A DNA stretch of 64,000 nucleotides from the NCBI GenBank assembly GCA_017798125.1, contig CP059070.1:620001-684000 (forward strand), written 5' to 3'. The DNA comes from Cryomorphaceae bacterium (GTDB lineage Bacteria; Bacteroidota; Bacteroidia; Flavobacteriales; ECT2AJA-044). Of this stretch, positions 60,396-64,000 are shown in pieces. The translations under genes were made by a program, and so were the position numbers. The number at the start of each line of letters is the position of its first letter. The stretch's first letter is position 1. Under the pieces are notes generated by a model. It saw nothing but the letters and a program-made list of their open reading frames with translations. It ran no database searches and was not told the origin of the DNA.

Positions 60396-61550
60396 TTAAT
60401 AGGGTAGGCCCCATTGCAATACGGCGTCCTCTACATATATAGAGTCTTGCCCACCTACTCGATACAACCACCCCGTAAATTCCATATCCACGATATAGAC
60501 AAGGTCGCCGTGTTCATTGTCCTTGTAAGGAGTATGGTTGAGAATCTCCAAAGTCTGTTGAGTTCCGCCAAAAATCGGAGCACTGGTATAGCGCTCACCA
60601 TTGGGAGCATCATAAGTGAGGATGGCTTCCCGTGTCGGCGGGCCAGGGGGCAACGGTAAGGGCAATTCCCGATAGTTAAAGGCCGCGTTGCATATTAATT
60701 GCGGTCCAACGTGAATTTCGCGTTGATACACGAAAAAGTTCGCAGAATCTACGGGTAAGTACTGCACCGCCATGGAATAAATCCCCGGTGCGGAATAGGT
60801 GTAATTAAACGTCCAGTCACCCACTATTGGATTGGTCCCATCACCCATATCTACGATAAGCAGTCCTTGATTTCCCAAGACAGGGTCGATGGAAACTTGA
60901 ACCGTATTGTTTCCTCCACCCGATCCGTTTTGCTGTACATCAACTTCCAATATGTGATTGGCCCAGAGGTTGACGAAATTAATCGACGTACAAAAGCCAC
61001 TGTTCAAGACGGTACAAAAGACCGCCACAACCGAATCGGCGCTTGTCAAGTCATACGTGTGCTGAACCGACAACCCTTGTGCTGCAGAACCATCCCCAAA
61101 GTCCCATGATACCACCGGTGTGGCCGGGCCTCCCGTGGGTCCTTGATAATTGAATTCAATGGTTCTCGTATTCGGAATAATACTCGGTGGAGGATTCATA
61201 ACCACACTTCCCGCCTCAAAGGCTGAGTCTGGTATGGCTCCCATAGGATTTTCAGGACGATGGAATAAATTGACTCGAAATTCTGGCTCACAACCGGGGC
61301 AATCTGGATCGTGCATTTCGCCGCGAAGAAGAGTTCCATTCGGAGCCAATGTATCCTGTAAGCGGCTCGTGGACATTCGGTAACCATTGTCTCCAGCGGT
61401 CATCTGTACAGAGTCACCATTCACCAGGCCATTAAACGTAAATACCGGTGCAGGTGATGGATCCCCGGAGTCAAAGGGGCCAATTTCATCCGCGCACCCT
61501 ACTAAGAAAAGCAGGCATAAAGAGAATAGTATGGAACCTATATGTTTCAT
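60396..61550 (-). CDS. PKD-domain lipoprotein, last gene of the sigma-factor operon
   Basis: 384 residues. Lipoprotein signal peptide (ILFSLCLLFLVGC). Two PKD-type beta-sandwich domains are visible from VVSWDFGDGSAAQGLSVQHTYD (about 170-190) and from LLIVDMGDGTNPIVG to YTYSAPGIYSMAVQY (about 255-300). PKD domains mediate binding at the surface. Start at 61550 chosen for the signal peptide; it overlaps the upstream gene by 4 bases (ATGA), so its synthesis is coupled. No enzymatic motif. Confidence 0.8.
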   Translation of the reverse strand: MKHIGSILFSLCLLFLVGCADEIGPFDSGDPSPAPVFTFNGLVNGDSVQMTAGDNGYRMSTSRLQDTLAPNGTLLRGEMHDPDCPGCEPEFRVNLFHRPENPMGAIPDSAFEAGSVVMNPPPSIIPNTRTIEFNYQGPTGGPATPVVSWDFGDGSAAQGLSVQHTYDLTSADSVVAVFCTVLNSGFCTSINFVNLWANHILEVDVQQNGSGGGNNTVQVSIDPVLGNQGLLIVDMGDGTNPIVGDWTFNYTYSAPGIYSMAVQYLPVDSANFFVYQREIHVGPQLICNAAFNYRELPLPLPPGPPTREAILTYDAPNGERYTSAPIFGGTQQTLEILNHTPYKDNEHGDLVYIVDMEFTGWLYRVGGQDSIYVEDAVLQWGLPY

Positions 61551-62977
61551 CGGAATAAGCTGTAATGTACTCCAACGCGTACCTGCCAGGGTACAGGCGC
61601 CAGTGCTTCTGAGTCCAATAAATCTCGATCCAAGAGGTAGTAATTCACCGCGGTATTCAGAGCCAGGCGGTCGCTGATTCGCCACTGATAACCAGCGGAC
61701 CAGCTCACATTCCAGCGACGCATGCCGTGGACGTATCCATAGGTCTCATAGCTTCCCAGCGATTCTACATCATACCATTCGTGCAGCTCTTCCGATACCT
61801 GGACTTGTGTCGGGAGCATGTAGGTGACCCCAAAGCCGCAGGTCATGAAGTGACGGTTGGCGAATCGGTAGCGCACACGTACAGGCATCTCTAGTTGAAC
61901 GCTTTGGTCCGCTTTAATGTAACGCACTTGAGTAGCTGCACCCATACCGTATACCGTTCTAGCAAACGTGACCGACCCCTGCGTACCGGCGATCAAATAT
62001 CCTGTGAGTTCCGCTTCCCAACTGAATCGATCATCCAAATGATGAGCATAGCGCAACCCGAATTCAGGTGAGTAATTCGTAATGTCGAAACCGTCTGGAA
62101 CATCAGCGAGTCGCATAGAACGGCCGGCGGCGATCAAGGCCCAGTCATGCTCGCCTTCAGGACCTACGCCCTTCTTCTCAGGAGGCAAAACAAAATCACT
62201 CGGAGCCGCACCAGAACCTTGTGGACCAGCGTCCACCAACGCAACATTGAATGTGGAGGCATTCAATTTTTCTAGATCTACTTTAGTGGCCAAAGCTCGA
62301 TCATCAGACTCCGTTTCACCTTTTTCAACCGGCGCAGCGGCCATATGGGAAGCATCACTTTGAGCCTCAGCTCCCATTGATTCCGCAGCTACTGGAGGTG
62401 TCCCAGAACCATCGATAGACCCTGAGGCCATACCCTCTATCACTCTTGAATTTGAGTTCTCTTGATCTGTAACCGAACCCAGGTCAGCTGAAGTCTCCGT
62501 CACCGAGCCCTCGCTAGTTGAGGTCCCAGTCAAAGATCCGGAAGCATCGTCCAGTTCAAAAGTTGCCGGAGCTTCTTCCTGCTCCGAGTCAGTCGTCGGT
62601 GCAGTTGTTTCTTCTGCAGCTTGTTCCACAGCCGGAATAGGAGTTTCTTCCAGAGCGTCTGCAGTGTCGAACCAGTTCACCGCTCCGATGGTCAACAACG
62701 CCAGTACCCCAGCTGCTGCAGACCAATAGACCACAGCCTTGCGACGGCGGCGACGAGCCTTCAAGGCTGAATACTGCCCCATAGCCGCCTCGAAGCCAGC
62801 TGTAGTCGCTTCGCCTACCTCAAAGGAAGAAGCGGCGTTTGCAACAGCGGCGTCCACGCGTGTAGGATCGTTGCGGTCCAACATGGCCTCCGCTTCTTCC
62901 CACGAACTCATGGAAAAAAGGAAGTCCTGCTCTCCGGCAGCGTCCTCAAAGCGTTTATCGAACTCCTGATCGCTCAC
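61547..62977 (-). CDS. Membrane-anchored protein with predicted C-terminal beta-barrel, probable anti-sigma partner
   Basis: 476 residues in four parts. Residues 1-78: charged cytoplasmic-type domain (MSDQEFDKRFEDAAGEQDF). About 80-98: one hydrophobic helix (AVVYWSAAAGVLALLTIGA) preceded by basic RRRRRK, i.e. N-terminus in the cytoplasm. About 100-255: low-complexity Ser/Thr/Glu/Ala linker. About 270-476: alternating strands (FGLRYAHHLDDRFSWEAELTGYL to WQVRVGVHYSLF) ending in aromatic-Arg, like an eight-strand outer-membrane barrel. There is no signal peptide. Overlaps the ECF sigma gene by 4 bases. The position suggests an anti-sigma role; this is inference, and I recognise no named anti-sigma domain. 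Confidence 0.7.
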   Translation of the reverse strand: MSDQEFDKRFEDAAGEQDFLFSMSSWEEAEAMLDRNDPTRVDAAVANAASSFEVGEATTAGFEAAMGQYSALKARRRRRKAVVYWSAAAGVLALLTIGAVNWFDTADALEETPIPAVEQAAEETTAPTTDSEQEEAPATFELDDASGSLTGTSTSEGSVTETSADLGSVTDQENSNSRVIEGMASGSIDGSGTPPVAAESMGAEAQSDASHMAAAPVEKGETESDDRALATKVDLEKLNASTFNVALVDAGPQGSGAAPSDFVLPPEKKGVGPEGEHDWALIAAGRSMRLADVPDGFDITNYSPEFGLRYAHHLDDRFSWEAELTGYLIAGTQGSVTFARTVYGMGAATQVRYIKADQSVQLEMPVRVRYRFANRHFMTCGFGVTYMLPTQVQVSEELHEWYDVESLGSYETYGYVHGMRRWNVSWSAGYQWRISDRLALNTAVNYYLLDRDLLDSEALAPVPWQVRVGVHYSLFR

Positions 62978-63519
62978 TTAGCGGCTACTTTTTTGTATTC
63001 AACCATTCGGGCCTTCAGTAATTTTCGAGCATTGGCGACATGCCACTTGCTCGCGCTAATACTGACGCCCAACATCTCACTAATTTCTTTGTGCATATAC
63101 CCATCAATCGCATACAGGTTGAAGATTTCTCGACTCTGCTCCGGCAATTCGCGCACCATGTGCATCAACTCTTCCGCGCCGAATTGCTGATTCATCGGGT
63201 CAAAATCGTGGAATTCTTCTTCTACAACGTCTTCTGGGTAGGTCTCAATCCGTCGTGCATTTTTTCGGTATTCATCGATCGCCGTATTCACGGTAATGCG
63301 CTTCAACCATGCACCAAACGGATAGGTGGAATCGTACTTCTCTAAGCCGAAGAGCACTTTACAAAACGCCAGGTTCAATAAAGCCTCTGCATCGGCACGT
63401 TGATTCGTATACCGGAAGCAAATGCGCATCATGAAGGCAAAGCACAGCCGATATAACTCGAACTGTGCTTTGCGGTCTTCATTGAGACACCTCTGTATTA
63501 ATTCCGGTGCTACGTTCAT
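62974..63519 (-). CDS. ECF (extracytoplasmic function) RNA polymerase sigma factor
   Basis: 181 residues. Region 2 (CFRYTNQRADAEALLNLAF to FGAWLKRITVNTAIDEYRK) binds core enzyme and the -10 region; region 4 (REIFNLYAIDGYMHKEISEMLGVSISASKWHV) is the helix-turn-helix for the -35 region. Starts directly after the T9SS protein's stop codon and overlaps the next gene by 4 bases. It probably activates its own operon, but no candidate ECF promoter is visible inside the window because the operon's beginning lies beyond its end. Confidence 0.93.
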   Translation of the reverse strand: MNVAPELIQRCLNEDRKAQFELYRLCFAFMMRICFRYTNQRADAEALLNLAFCKVLFGLEKYDSTYPFGAWLKRITVNTAIDEYRKNARRIETYPEDVVEEEFHDFDPMNQQFGAEELMHMVRELPEQSREIFNLYAIDGYMHKEISEMLGVSISASKWHVANARKLLKARMVEYKKVAAK

Positions 63520-64000
63520 TTATTGTTTCACGATCCGTAGGTAATCCACACTCGAACCTTGAACGACTTGCAGGACATAACTTCCTGCCGGGAAGCCGCT
63601 GAGATCAAGGGTCTCATTGTTTTGGCCCTCACGGGCCGATGCGTTCTCATCGATGAGCACACGACCGGTCATATCGATCAATCTCAATGCTACATCTGAT
63701 GATTCTACCGAGCTGTAGGTCACATTCAAGCCTCCGCTCGTCGGGTTTGGATAAGCCTTCAATTCCTGAATACTCGACTCACCTAAAGATACGGTTTGAG
63801 GCGCAAAGCTTCCTCCGCTCCACGTCGCATTGGTCACCGTAACGGTGTCACAGAAGGTATCTGTGCAACCTGTGGCAGCGTCAGATACGGTCAAGCAGAC
63901 TGCATATGTTCCCGGTCCTGCATAGATGTGGTTTGGAAGTGGGCTTGATGAAGTATTTCCGTCACCGAAGTCCCATGCGTAGGTCAAACCAGAATCCAAT
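63520..64000 (-). CDS. T9SS-sorted PKD-domain surface protein, C-terminal part
   Basis: The gene continues beyond the window end, so only ~160 C-terminal residues are seen. A PKD domain (YAWDFGDGNTSSSPLPNHIYAGPGTYAVCLTV) is followed by a type A T9SS sorting domain: LKAYPNPTSGGLNV, LRLIDMTGRV, LDLSGFPAGSYVL, and a final IVKQ. The protein should be exported across the outer membrane and surface-attached. Directly abuts the sigma-factor gene. Hairpin copy at 63624-63640 encodes SAREG in the sorting domain. Confidence 0.9.
   Translation of the reverse strand, partial: LDSGLTYAWDFGDGNTSSSPLPNHIYAGPGTYAVCLTVSDAATGCTDTFCDTVTVTNATWSGGSFAPQTVSLGESSIQELKAYPNPTSGGLNVTYSSVESSDVALRLIDMTGRVLIDENASAREGQNNETLDLSGFPAGSYVLQVVQGSSVDYLRIVKQ
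63624..63640 (+). repeat. Dispersed mini-hairpin, copy GGCCC-TCAC-GGGCC-GAT
   Basis: Perfect stem preceded by TT and followed by GATG, antisense inside the T9SS sorting-domain coding region, read as ASAREGQ. Confidence 0.6.

Follow-up and report, generated by a model that had tools for sequence, protein, structure and literature searches.

A probable one-chain anti-sigma factor of the Dma/Reo type, encoded with a PKD lipoprotein in a tandem ECF sigma factor cassette

Near the end of the stretch of contig CP059070.1 analysed here (the window: 64,000 nucleotides, bases 620001-684000 of a 2.84-Mb single-contig genome), a gene for a 476-amino-acid (aa) protein directly follows the gene for an extracytoplasmic function (ECF) sigma factor, sigma B. 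This protein is probably a one-chain anti-sigma factor of the Dma/Reo type, a single polypeptide that would bind the sigma factor at one end and sit in the outer membrane at the other; we would put the probability of this reading at about 0.82. It is carried by the sequence anatomy of the protein, its predicted fold, its conserved linkage to the sigma factor and a promoter motif shared within the locus. An earlier note on this DNA, made from the letters of the sequence, had proposed that one chain could link the outer membrane to the sigma factor. Fold and linkage support that proposal, and the design itself has already been published for Bacteroides and Phocaeicola (Dma, Reo). The gene content of the genome places it in the Bacteroidota: it encodes sorting domains of the type IX secretion system (T9SS), and the sigma factor has its closest relatives in genomes of the Flavobacteriales and Saprospiraceae.

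Predicted architecture of the spanning protein

The AlphaFold2 model of the 476-aa protein, built on 35 aligned sequences, contains helices at residues 3-16, 23-35, 38-51 and 59-110, the last of which includes the membrane helix. These are followed by a long stretch predicted to be almost wholly without structure, and then by strands between residues 277 and 475 (predicted local distance difference test (pLDDT) scores are given in Table 1). Model and hydropathy agree with the cytoplasmic N-terminal domain, single membrane helix and disordered linker read by the earlier note, whose estimate of about 155 residues for the linker fell short of the 172-175 or so found here. The region that it had likened to a barrel, the C-terminal 200 residues, is predicted with high confidence and was matched by Foldseek to the OmpA transmembrane domain (E 3e-8), Ail and OmpX. 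Modelled alone, the protein gives a barrel and not a soluble periplasmic beta domain, the outcome that the note had set against its own proposal. From the secondary-structure string we read eight long strands with both ends in the periplasm, a topology that would fit a periplasmic tether joining strand 1. Among sequence profiles, OMP_b-brl_2 matched this barrel below threshold (E 0.021) and the barrel of its paralogue, protein A, above the cut-off (37.4 versus 27 bits). Nothing in Pfam or NCBIfam matched the 476-aa protein above cut-off, and a sequence comparison with solved structures returned chance matches only.

Across 77 homologues the tether measures 109-279 residues (median 165), with none shorter than 109; it is rich in S, N, E and T, and C and W are nearly absent from it. 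The charge around the helix follows the positive-inside rule in 92% of the same proteins, and the window protein has a run of basic residues there. Such a helix can act as a signal anchor, with the C-terminal part exported and the barrel insertable from the periplasm, in which case a cleavable signal peptide is unnecessary. This would be an ordinary answer to a puzzle raised with the original proposal, namely how a protein lacking a signal peptide could place a barrel in the outer membrane.

Linkage to the ECF sigma factor

Sigma B has both sigma70 region 2 (E 1e-11) and region r4_2 (E 2e-13). With a profile of the cassette sigmas we collected the 80 closest loci from GTDB genomes, which come from several families and are not phylogenetically independent. 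The search for the same architecture beside ECF genes, suggested in the earlier note, was productive: in 74/76 informative loci the next gene has the module-helix-tether-barrel layout, and the two genes often overlap by 4 bases; a sigma and its anti-sigma would be expected to be linked in this way. No natural fusion of a sigma with a barrel protein occurred among the loci collected. The exceptions are loci L081 and L098; four more (L064, L083, L089 and L112) are cut by contig ends and stand outside the 76. Of the other ECF genes of the genome, seven were read in the downstream direction, and 0/7 have a barrel partner. Searches with a profile built from 17 spanning proteins gave matches in 280/395 Bacteroidia genomes, a count that overstates the number of Dma-type proteins because some of the weaker matches are short stand-alone outer-membrane proteins.

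A classical relay, in which a TonB-dependent receptor signals to a FecR-type anti-sigma factor, is a common ECF arrangement in Bacteroidota, and by eye another ECF factor of this genome (L007) has a FecR-like partner. For the present locus such a relay is scarcely credible, and we rejected it on domain content: no FecR domain was matched in the 476-aa protein and no TonB-dependent receptor occurs among the neighbour genes read.

The N-terminal module

The cytoplasmic end of the protein holds a motif of about 37 residues, roughly xxKELDKLFxxKLxxxxFxFNxxxWxxxExxLD, in which residues F10 and W26 (numbered as in the 476-aa protein) are invariant. Detectable copies among the 77 proteins number one in 66, two in five, three in three and four in one, with none in two; L109 and L116 each have, by eye, one extra degenerate copy. 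Protein A has two clear copies, and the window protein (protein B) has one clear and one degenerate copy, the latter at about residues 38-72. Modules repeated two to four times ahead of a single membrane helix are seen in L050, L042, L043, L116, L109, L041 and L052, the number depending on lineage. If one copy is assumed to hold one sigma, some lineages could hold several. The repeated modules provide a natural handle on the putative sigma-binding unit.

The protein might also be read as an ordinary outer-membrane barrel whose N-terminal extension is unrelated to the sigma factor, the adjacency of the genes reflecting operon co-location only. The barrel is indeed of the generic OMP_b-brl kind, and sigma binding by the extension is putative. 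We nevertheless consider this very unlikely and rejected it, in view of the 74/76 linkage across several families, the conservation of an N-terminal module with a Trp, present in more than one copy in some lineages, and the proven function of the same design in Bacteroides.

A conserved PKD lipoprotein as third gene

The gene 3' of the spanning gene encodes a homologous PKD lipoprotein in 58/74 loci, usually no more than a few bases from the anti-sigma gene (60/65 sequences, including the two copies of this locus, have E below 1e-3 against own copy A). Following the cysteine, these proteins have the consensus C-x-K-(D/E)-(D/E), with K at +3 in 63%, an acidic residue at +4 in 64% and an acidic residue at +5 in 49%, against an acidic background of 12%. 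The family is probably on the cell surface, because its consensus matches C-x-K-(D/E)2, the surface-export signal defined for Capnocytophaga (PMC5080379). Of the two copies here, A has CQKE and B the weaker CADE. The lipoprotein is modelled as a chain of beta domains of Ig/PKD type, and a fold search returned generic Ig/PKD-like matches only (best E 8e-4), none of them informative on function. The barrel anti-sigma gene occurs without a PKD lipoprotein gene in about 15/74 loci, so that the lipoprotein is not strictly required. In cassettes without it, the spanning gene and the convergent gene that comes next, of about 440-610 aa, overlap at their ends (L044, L055, L056, L060, L063, L065, L038 and L048).

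Barrel/lipoprotein pairs, SusC/SusD for example, are common in Bacteroidota. The PKD lipoprotein could be a sensor part on or in the barrel that sets the switch, which would make the system a three-part receptor and not an anti-sigma factor with an output gene. Its conservation as third gene beside the anti-sigma gene and the surface-export signal of its family both favour this idea. Against it stand the loci with a barrel anti-sigma and no lipoprotein, the weaker export signal of the window copy and the Phocaeicola NigD lipoproteins of the corresponding system, which behave as regulon output (PMC13114119). On this evidence we regard a sensor role as doubtful.

Promoter motif and T9SS genes

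The 655-aa protein encoded upstream of sigma B has a T9SS type A sorting domain (Por_Secre_tail, E 3e-13; TIGR04183, 51.8 bits against a cut-off of 23). The same kind of domain terminates 10/10 large genes sampled directly upstream of the sigma at other loci, a sample chosen by size and strand and without a background rate for comparison, so that a recurrence of T9SS genes upstream of the sigma is at most suggested.

An ECF-like motif, YAACC-N16-CGTAC, which was first spotted by eye, stands before sigma A (the paralogue of sigma B, beyond the window edge) and just before the ATG of the 655-aa T9SS gene. It has exactly two matches in 19 kb, where 0.05 are expected, and two in the sister genome (0.04 expected), in the same two places; the spacers of the sister sites have diverged, and both boxes and their spacing are conserved. 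Among 76 upstream regions, AACC-N15-17-CGTA is present in 10, three of which are the discovery sequences, compared with 0.44 in shuffles. A broader form of the motif, chosen after looking, gives 19 versus 1.0. In Flavobacterium psychrophilum, ECF promoters have been recognised by a CGT box at -10 (PMC9723704).

Operon layout and the shared motif are consistent with a system whose output is its own operon, including the T9SS adhesin and the surface lipoprotein, and it is on these two observations that the T9SS link proposed in the earlier note stands. With the shared motif, an operon to which a T9SS adhesin belongs becomes open to testing. The pattern is also found in intergenic DNA at L188 (G000:C1:1455724-1455749), before the gene for a 389-aa lipoprotein (SSCQKDEE), and at L177 (G000:C1:572190-572215), before that for a secreted 498-aa protein; both genes are possible further regulon members and serve as leads.

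Relation to NigD-linked sigma factors

In the EcfO-Reo system, EcfO controls NigD lipoproteins in an envelope-stress response (PMC9308784, PMC13114119). We retrieved operons with NigD-linked sigmas and barrel anti-sigmas from four Bacteroidia genomes, which from their gene content appear to be Reo/Dma1 orthologues. The spanning protein aligns with these anti-sigmas over the barrel (hhalign 98.5%, E 4e-15). In a tree of 42 rows, the cassette sigmas form a clade of their own (100/99) in a group with the NigD-linked sigmas and L006, apart from other ECFs (97/95). Within this genome, the sigma nearest to the NigD-linked group is L006 and not sigma A or B (E 6e-51 versus 1e-32). The 238-aa partner of L006 (L006 515-1782, G000:C1 near 943566) has a similar N-terminal region and helix and no barrel. 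NigD (PF12667) itself had 0 matches in the genome.

Proposed mechanism

We propose that the N-terminal two-helix module holds the ECF sigma encoded upstream in the cytoplasm. The signal-anchor helix would send the remainder of the chain outward, where the unstructured tether of about 170 residues would cross the periplasm and the small barrel would lodge in the outer membrane. A disturbance of the outer membrane, or of what sits on it, would cause the chain to release the sigma, most likely through cleavage of the chain. The free sigma (sigma B or its paralogue sigma A) would then transcribe its own operon, probably from YAACC-N16-CGTAC promoters, to yield the T9SS-secreted PKD protein, more sigma, more anti-sigma as feedback, and the surface lipoprotein. 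Failed barrel assembly, and the state of the lipoprotein or a ligand, are the main candidates for the trigger.

Were barrel assembly itself the signal, failed insertion would leave an unfolded barrel to be cut in the periplasm, freeing the sigma with no ligand involved. Envelope stress does elicit a response from the Reo system of P. vulgatus, and a BamA inhibitor induces many genes belonging to this response (PMC9308784). Nothing in the sequence bears on the idea, however, and the conserved lipoprotein partner suggests more than the monitoring of assembly; we take it to be possible, at less than even odds. A wider picture for systems outside Bacteroides is rather unlikely: a three-part surface receptor in which a dedicated PKD lipoprotein, exposed at the surface, determines the state of the tethered sigma by docking on the barrel, T9SS adhesins are monitored or produced, and multi-module lineages could hold several (or paralogous) sigmas for graded release.

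Several observations weigh against a one-chain anti-sigma factor of the Dma/Reo type. The N-terminal part of the model has pLDDT values of only about 60-83, the second module of protein B has lost its signature, and the sigma-binding role of the module is putative. The Reo-like match covers the barrel, a generic fold that also matches stand-alone outer-membrane proteins, and in a genome without NigD the Bacteroides regulon does not carry over. Genome-wide, AACC-N16-CGTA is not commoner than its control (82 versus 105) and the longer form of the motif is only modestly above control (16 versus 6). As these counts lie near the control, the scan defines no regulon, and we relied on the conserved sites near the cassettes.

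Gene order and tandem cassettes

The four genes of the locus in the window lie on the minus strand. As the earlier note had described, they abut (one junction, of 0 bases) or overlap by 4 bases (two junctions). The stop of the T9SS/PKD gene at 63520 abuts the sigma start at 63519, the sigma gene overlaps the 476-aa gene (GTG start) by the four bases GTGA, and this gene overlaps the lipoprotein gene (ATG at 61550) by ATGA. Domain matches agree with the identities first assigned to the T9SS/PKD protein, the ECF sigma and the PKD lipoprotein. The interval 61547-64000, originally quoted for all four genes, leaves the lipoprotein gene outside, and the window edge truncates the T9SS gene (Table 1).

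Table 1. Features of the sigma B cassette in window coordinates
Feature	Position	Strand	Basis
T9SS-secreted PKD-repeat surface protein, 3' part	63520..64000	-	PKD x4 + Por_Secre_tail; full 655 aa at L009 7521-9488
ECF sigma factor, sigma B, 181 aa	62974..63519	-	Sigma70_r2/r4_2, TIGR02937; paralogue sigma A upstream
Probable Dma/Reo-type envelope-spanning anti-sigma factor, 476 aa	61547..62977	-	AlphaFold2, Foldseek, sigma adjacency in 74/76 loci
N-terminal cytoplasmic module, residues 3-35, putatively sigma-binding	62873..62971	-	AlphaFold2 helices 3-16 and 23-35; F10, W26
Single transmembrane helix, residues 82-100, RRRRRK ahead	62678..62734	-	Hydropathy 1.96; helix in model
Disordered Ser/Thr/Glu-rich tether, residues 101-276	62150..62677	-	pLDDT below 50 nearly throughout 111-274
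Predicted outer-membrane beta-barrel, residues 277-476	61550..62149	-	Strands mostly pLDDT 90-98; OmpA/Ail/OmpX matches
PKD lipoprotein, 384 aa, lipobox FLVGC, Cys19	60396..61550	-	PKD_4; homologous third gene in 58 other loci; all-beta model

Beyond the window edge the locus continues as a tandem pair of cassettes, each with a sigma, a spanning protein and a PKD lipoprotein. Cassette A (L009 9588-12715, G000:C1:685587-688714) encodes sigma A (184 aa), spanning protein A (487 aa) and lipoprotein A (371 aa), and cassette B encodes the three window proteins of 181, 476 and 384 aa. The 655-aa T9SS/PKD gene lies between the cassettes, ahead of sigma B, and 5' of sigma A is a second T9SS protein, of 846 aa and Sortilin/Vps10-BNR type. 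A second genome of the genus keeps the whole arrangement, with 58% identity in protein B. Sigma A and sigma B are paralogues with 50% identity. A quick tree of 77 sigmas makes them sisters (Shimodaira-Hasegawa-like approximate likelihood ratio test 85), with B the faster-evolving copy, and the A/B fork is unresolved in the careful tree of 42 rows; a local duplication is the likely, though not certain, origin of the cassettes.

A strong hairpin and, after it, a T run occur right before the sigma start at L009 12729-12755 and in the 5' regions of L042, L043, L046, L053, L061, L067 and L072. This could either terminate the gene upstream or form a leader that separates sigma A from its promoter. 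At many loci (L042, L043, L050, L053, L057, L061, L062, L067, L074 and L084) the cassette has as its upstream neighbour a sugar-kinase-like gene of about 307 aa (MSLLVVGTVAFD...), located here at L009 15548-16471, which probably marks the ancestral location of the cassette.

Comparison with known systems

Like the FecR/TonB-receptor relay, the system would carry a signal from the surface to a sigma factor; the relay needs a separate receptor and anti-sigma, whereas here one chain would suffice. PorXY-SigP of Porphyromonas gingivalis (PMC4800418) likewise links an ECF sigma to type IX secretion, but SigP, under a two-component system, governs the secretion machinery, whereas the operon here holds only a T9SS substrate. 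Closer is EcfO-Reo of B. fragilis and Phocaeicola vulgatus. Reo spans all compartments from cytoplasm to cell surface and has a C-terminal barrel (PMC9308784, PMC13114119), the same cytoplasm-to-surface chain as proposed here.

The closest likeness is to Dma1 and Dma2 of Bacteroides thetaiotaomicron, which are described as having an N-terminal anti-sigma domain, a transmembrane helix, a long disordered tether and a C-terminal barrel (PMC13088901). Their genes adjoin ECF21 sigmas, and loss of Dma1 or Dma2 is reported to raise outer-membrane vesicle production. The family is also the subject of a PNAS 2024 paper cited there as ref. 16. Experiments tie Dma1, Dma2 and Reo to control of their sigma factors (PMC13088901; PMC9308784; PMC13114119). 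The four-part chain (predicted here), the position beside an ECF sigma and the small operon with a further gene are shared with our locus, and the further gene differs: BT_1557 (DUF4943) in the Dma2 operon, the PKD lipoprotein as third gene here.

The papers that we found treat Dma/Reo proteins of gut Bacteroides and Phocaeicola only, and in the literature searched we met no description of the T9SS operon, the repeated module, the lipoprotein partner or the sister clade of sigmas. The distinct sigma clade, the constant PKD lipoprotein, the module repeats and the shared promoter motif appear to be new here. For the outer component that is still missing, the sister clade, spread over Flavobacteriales and Saprospirales, offers a concrete candidate in its conserved surface lipoprotein. 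The protein encoded in the window shares the Dma architecture and very likely works like Dma. It is set apart from Dma by its separate sigma clade, its third gene, the T9SS gene in its operon, the tandem duplication of its cassette and an N-terminal module that is repeated in several homologues.

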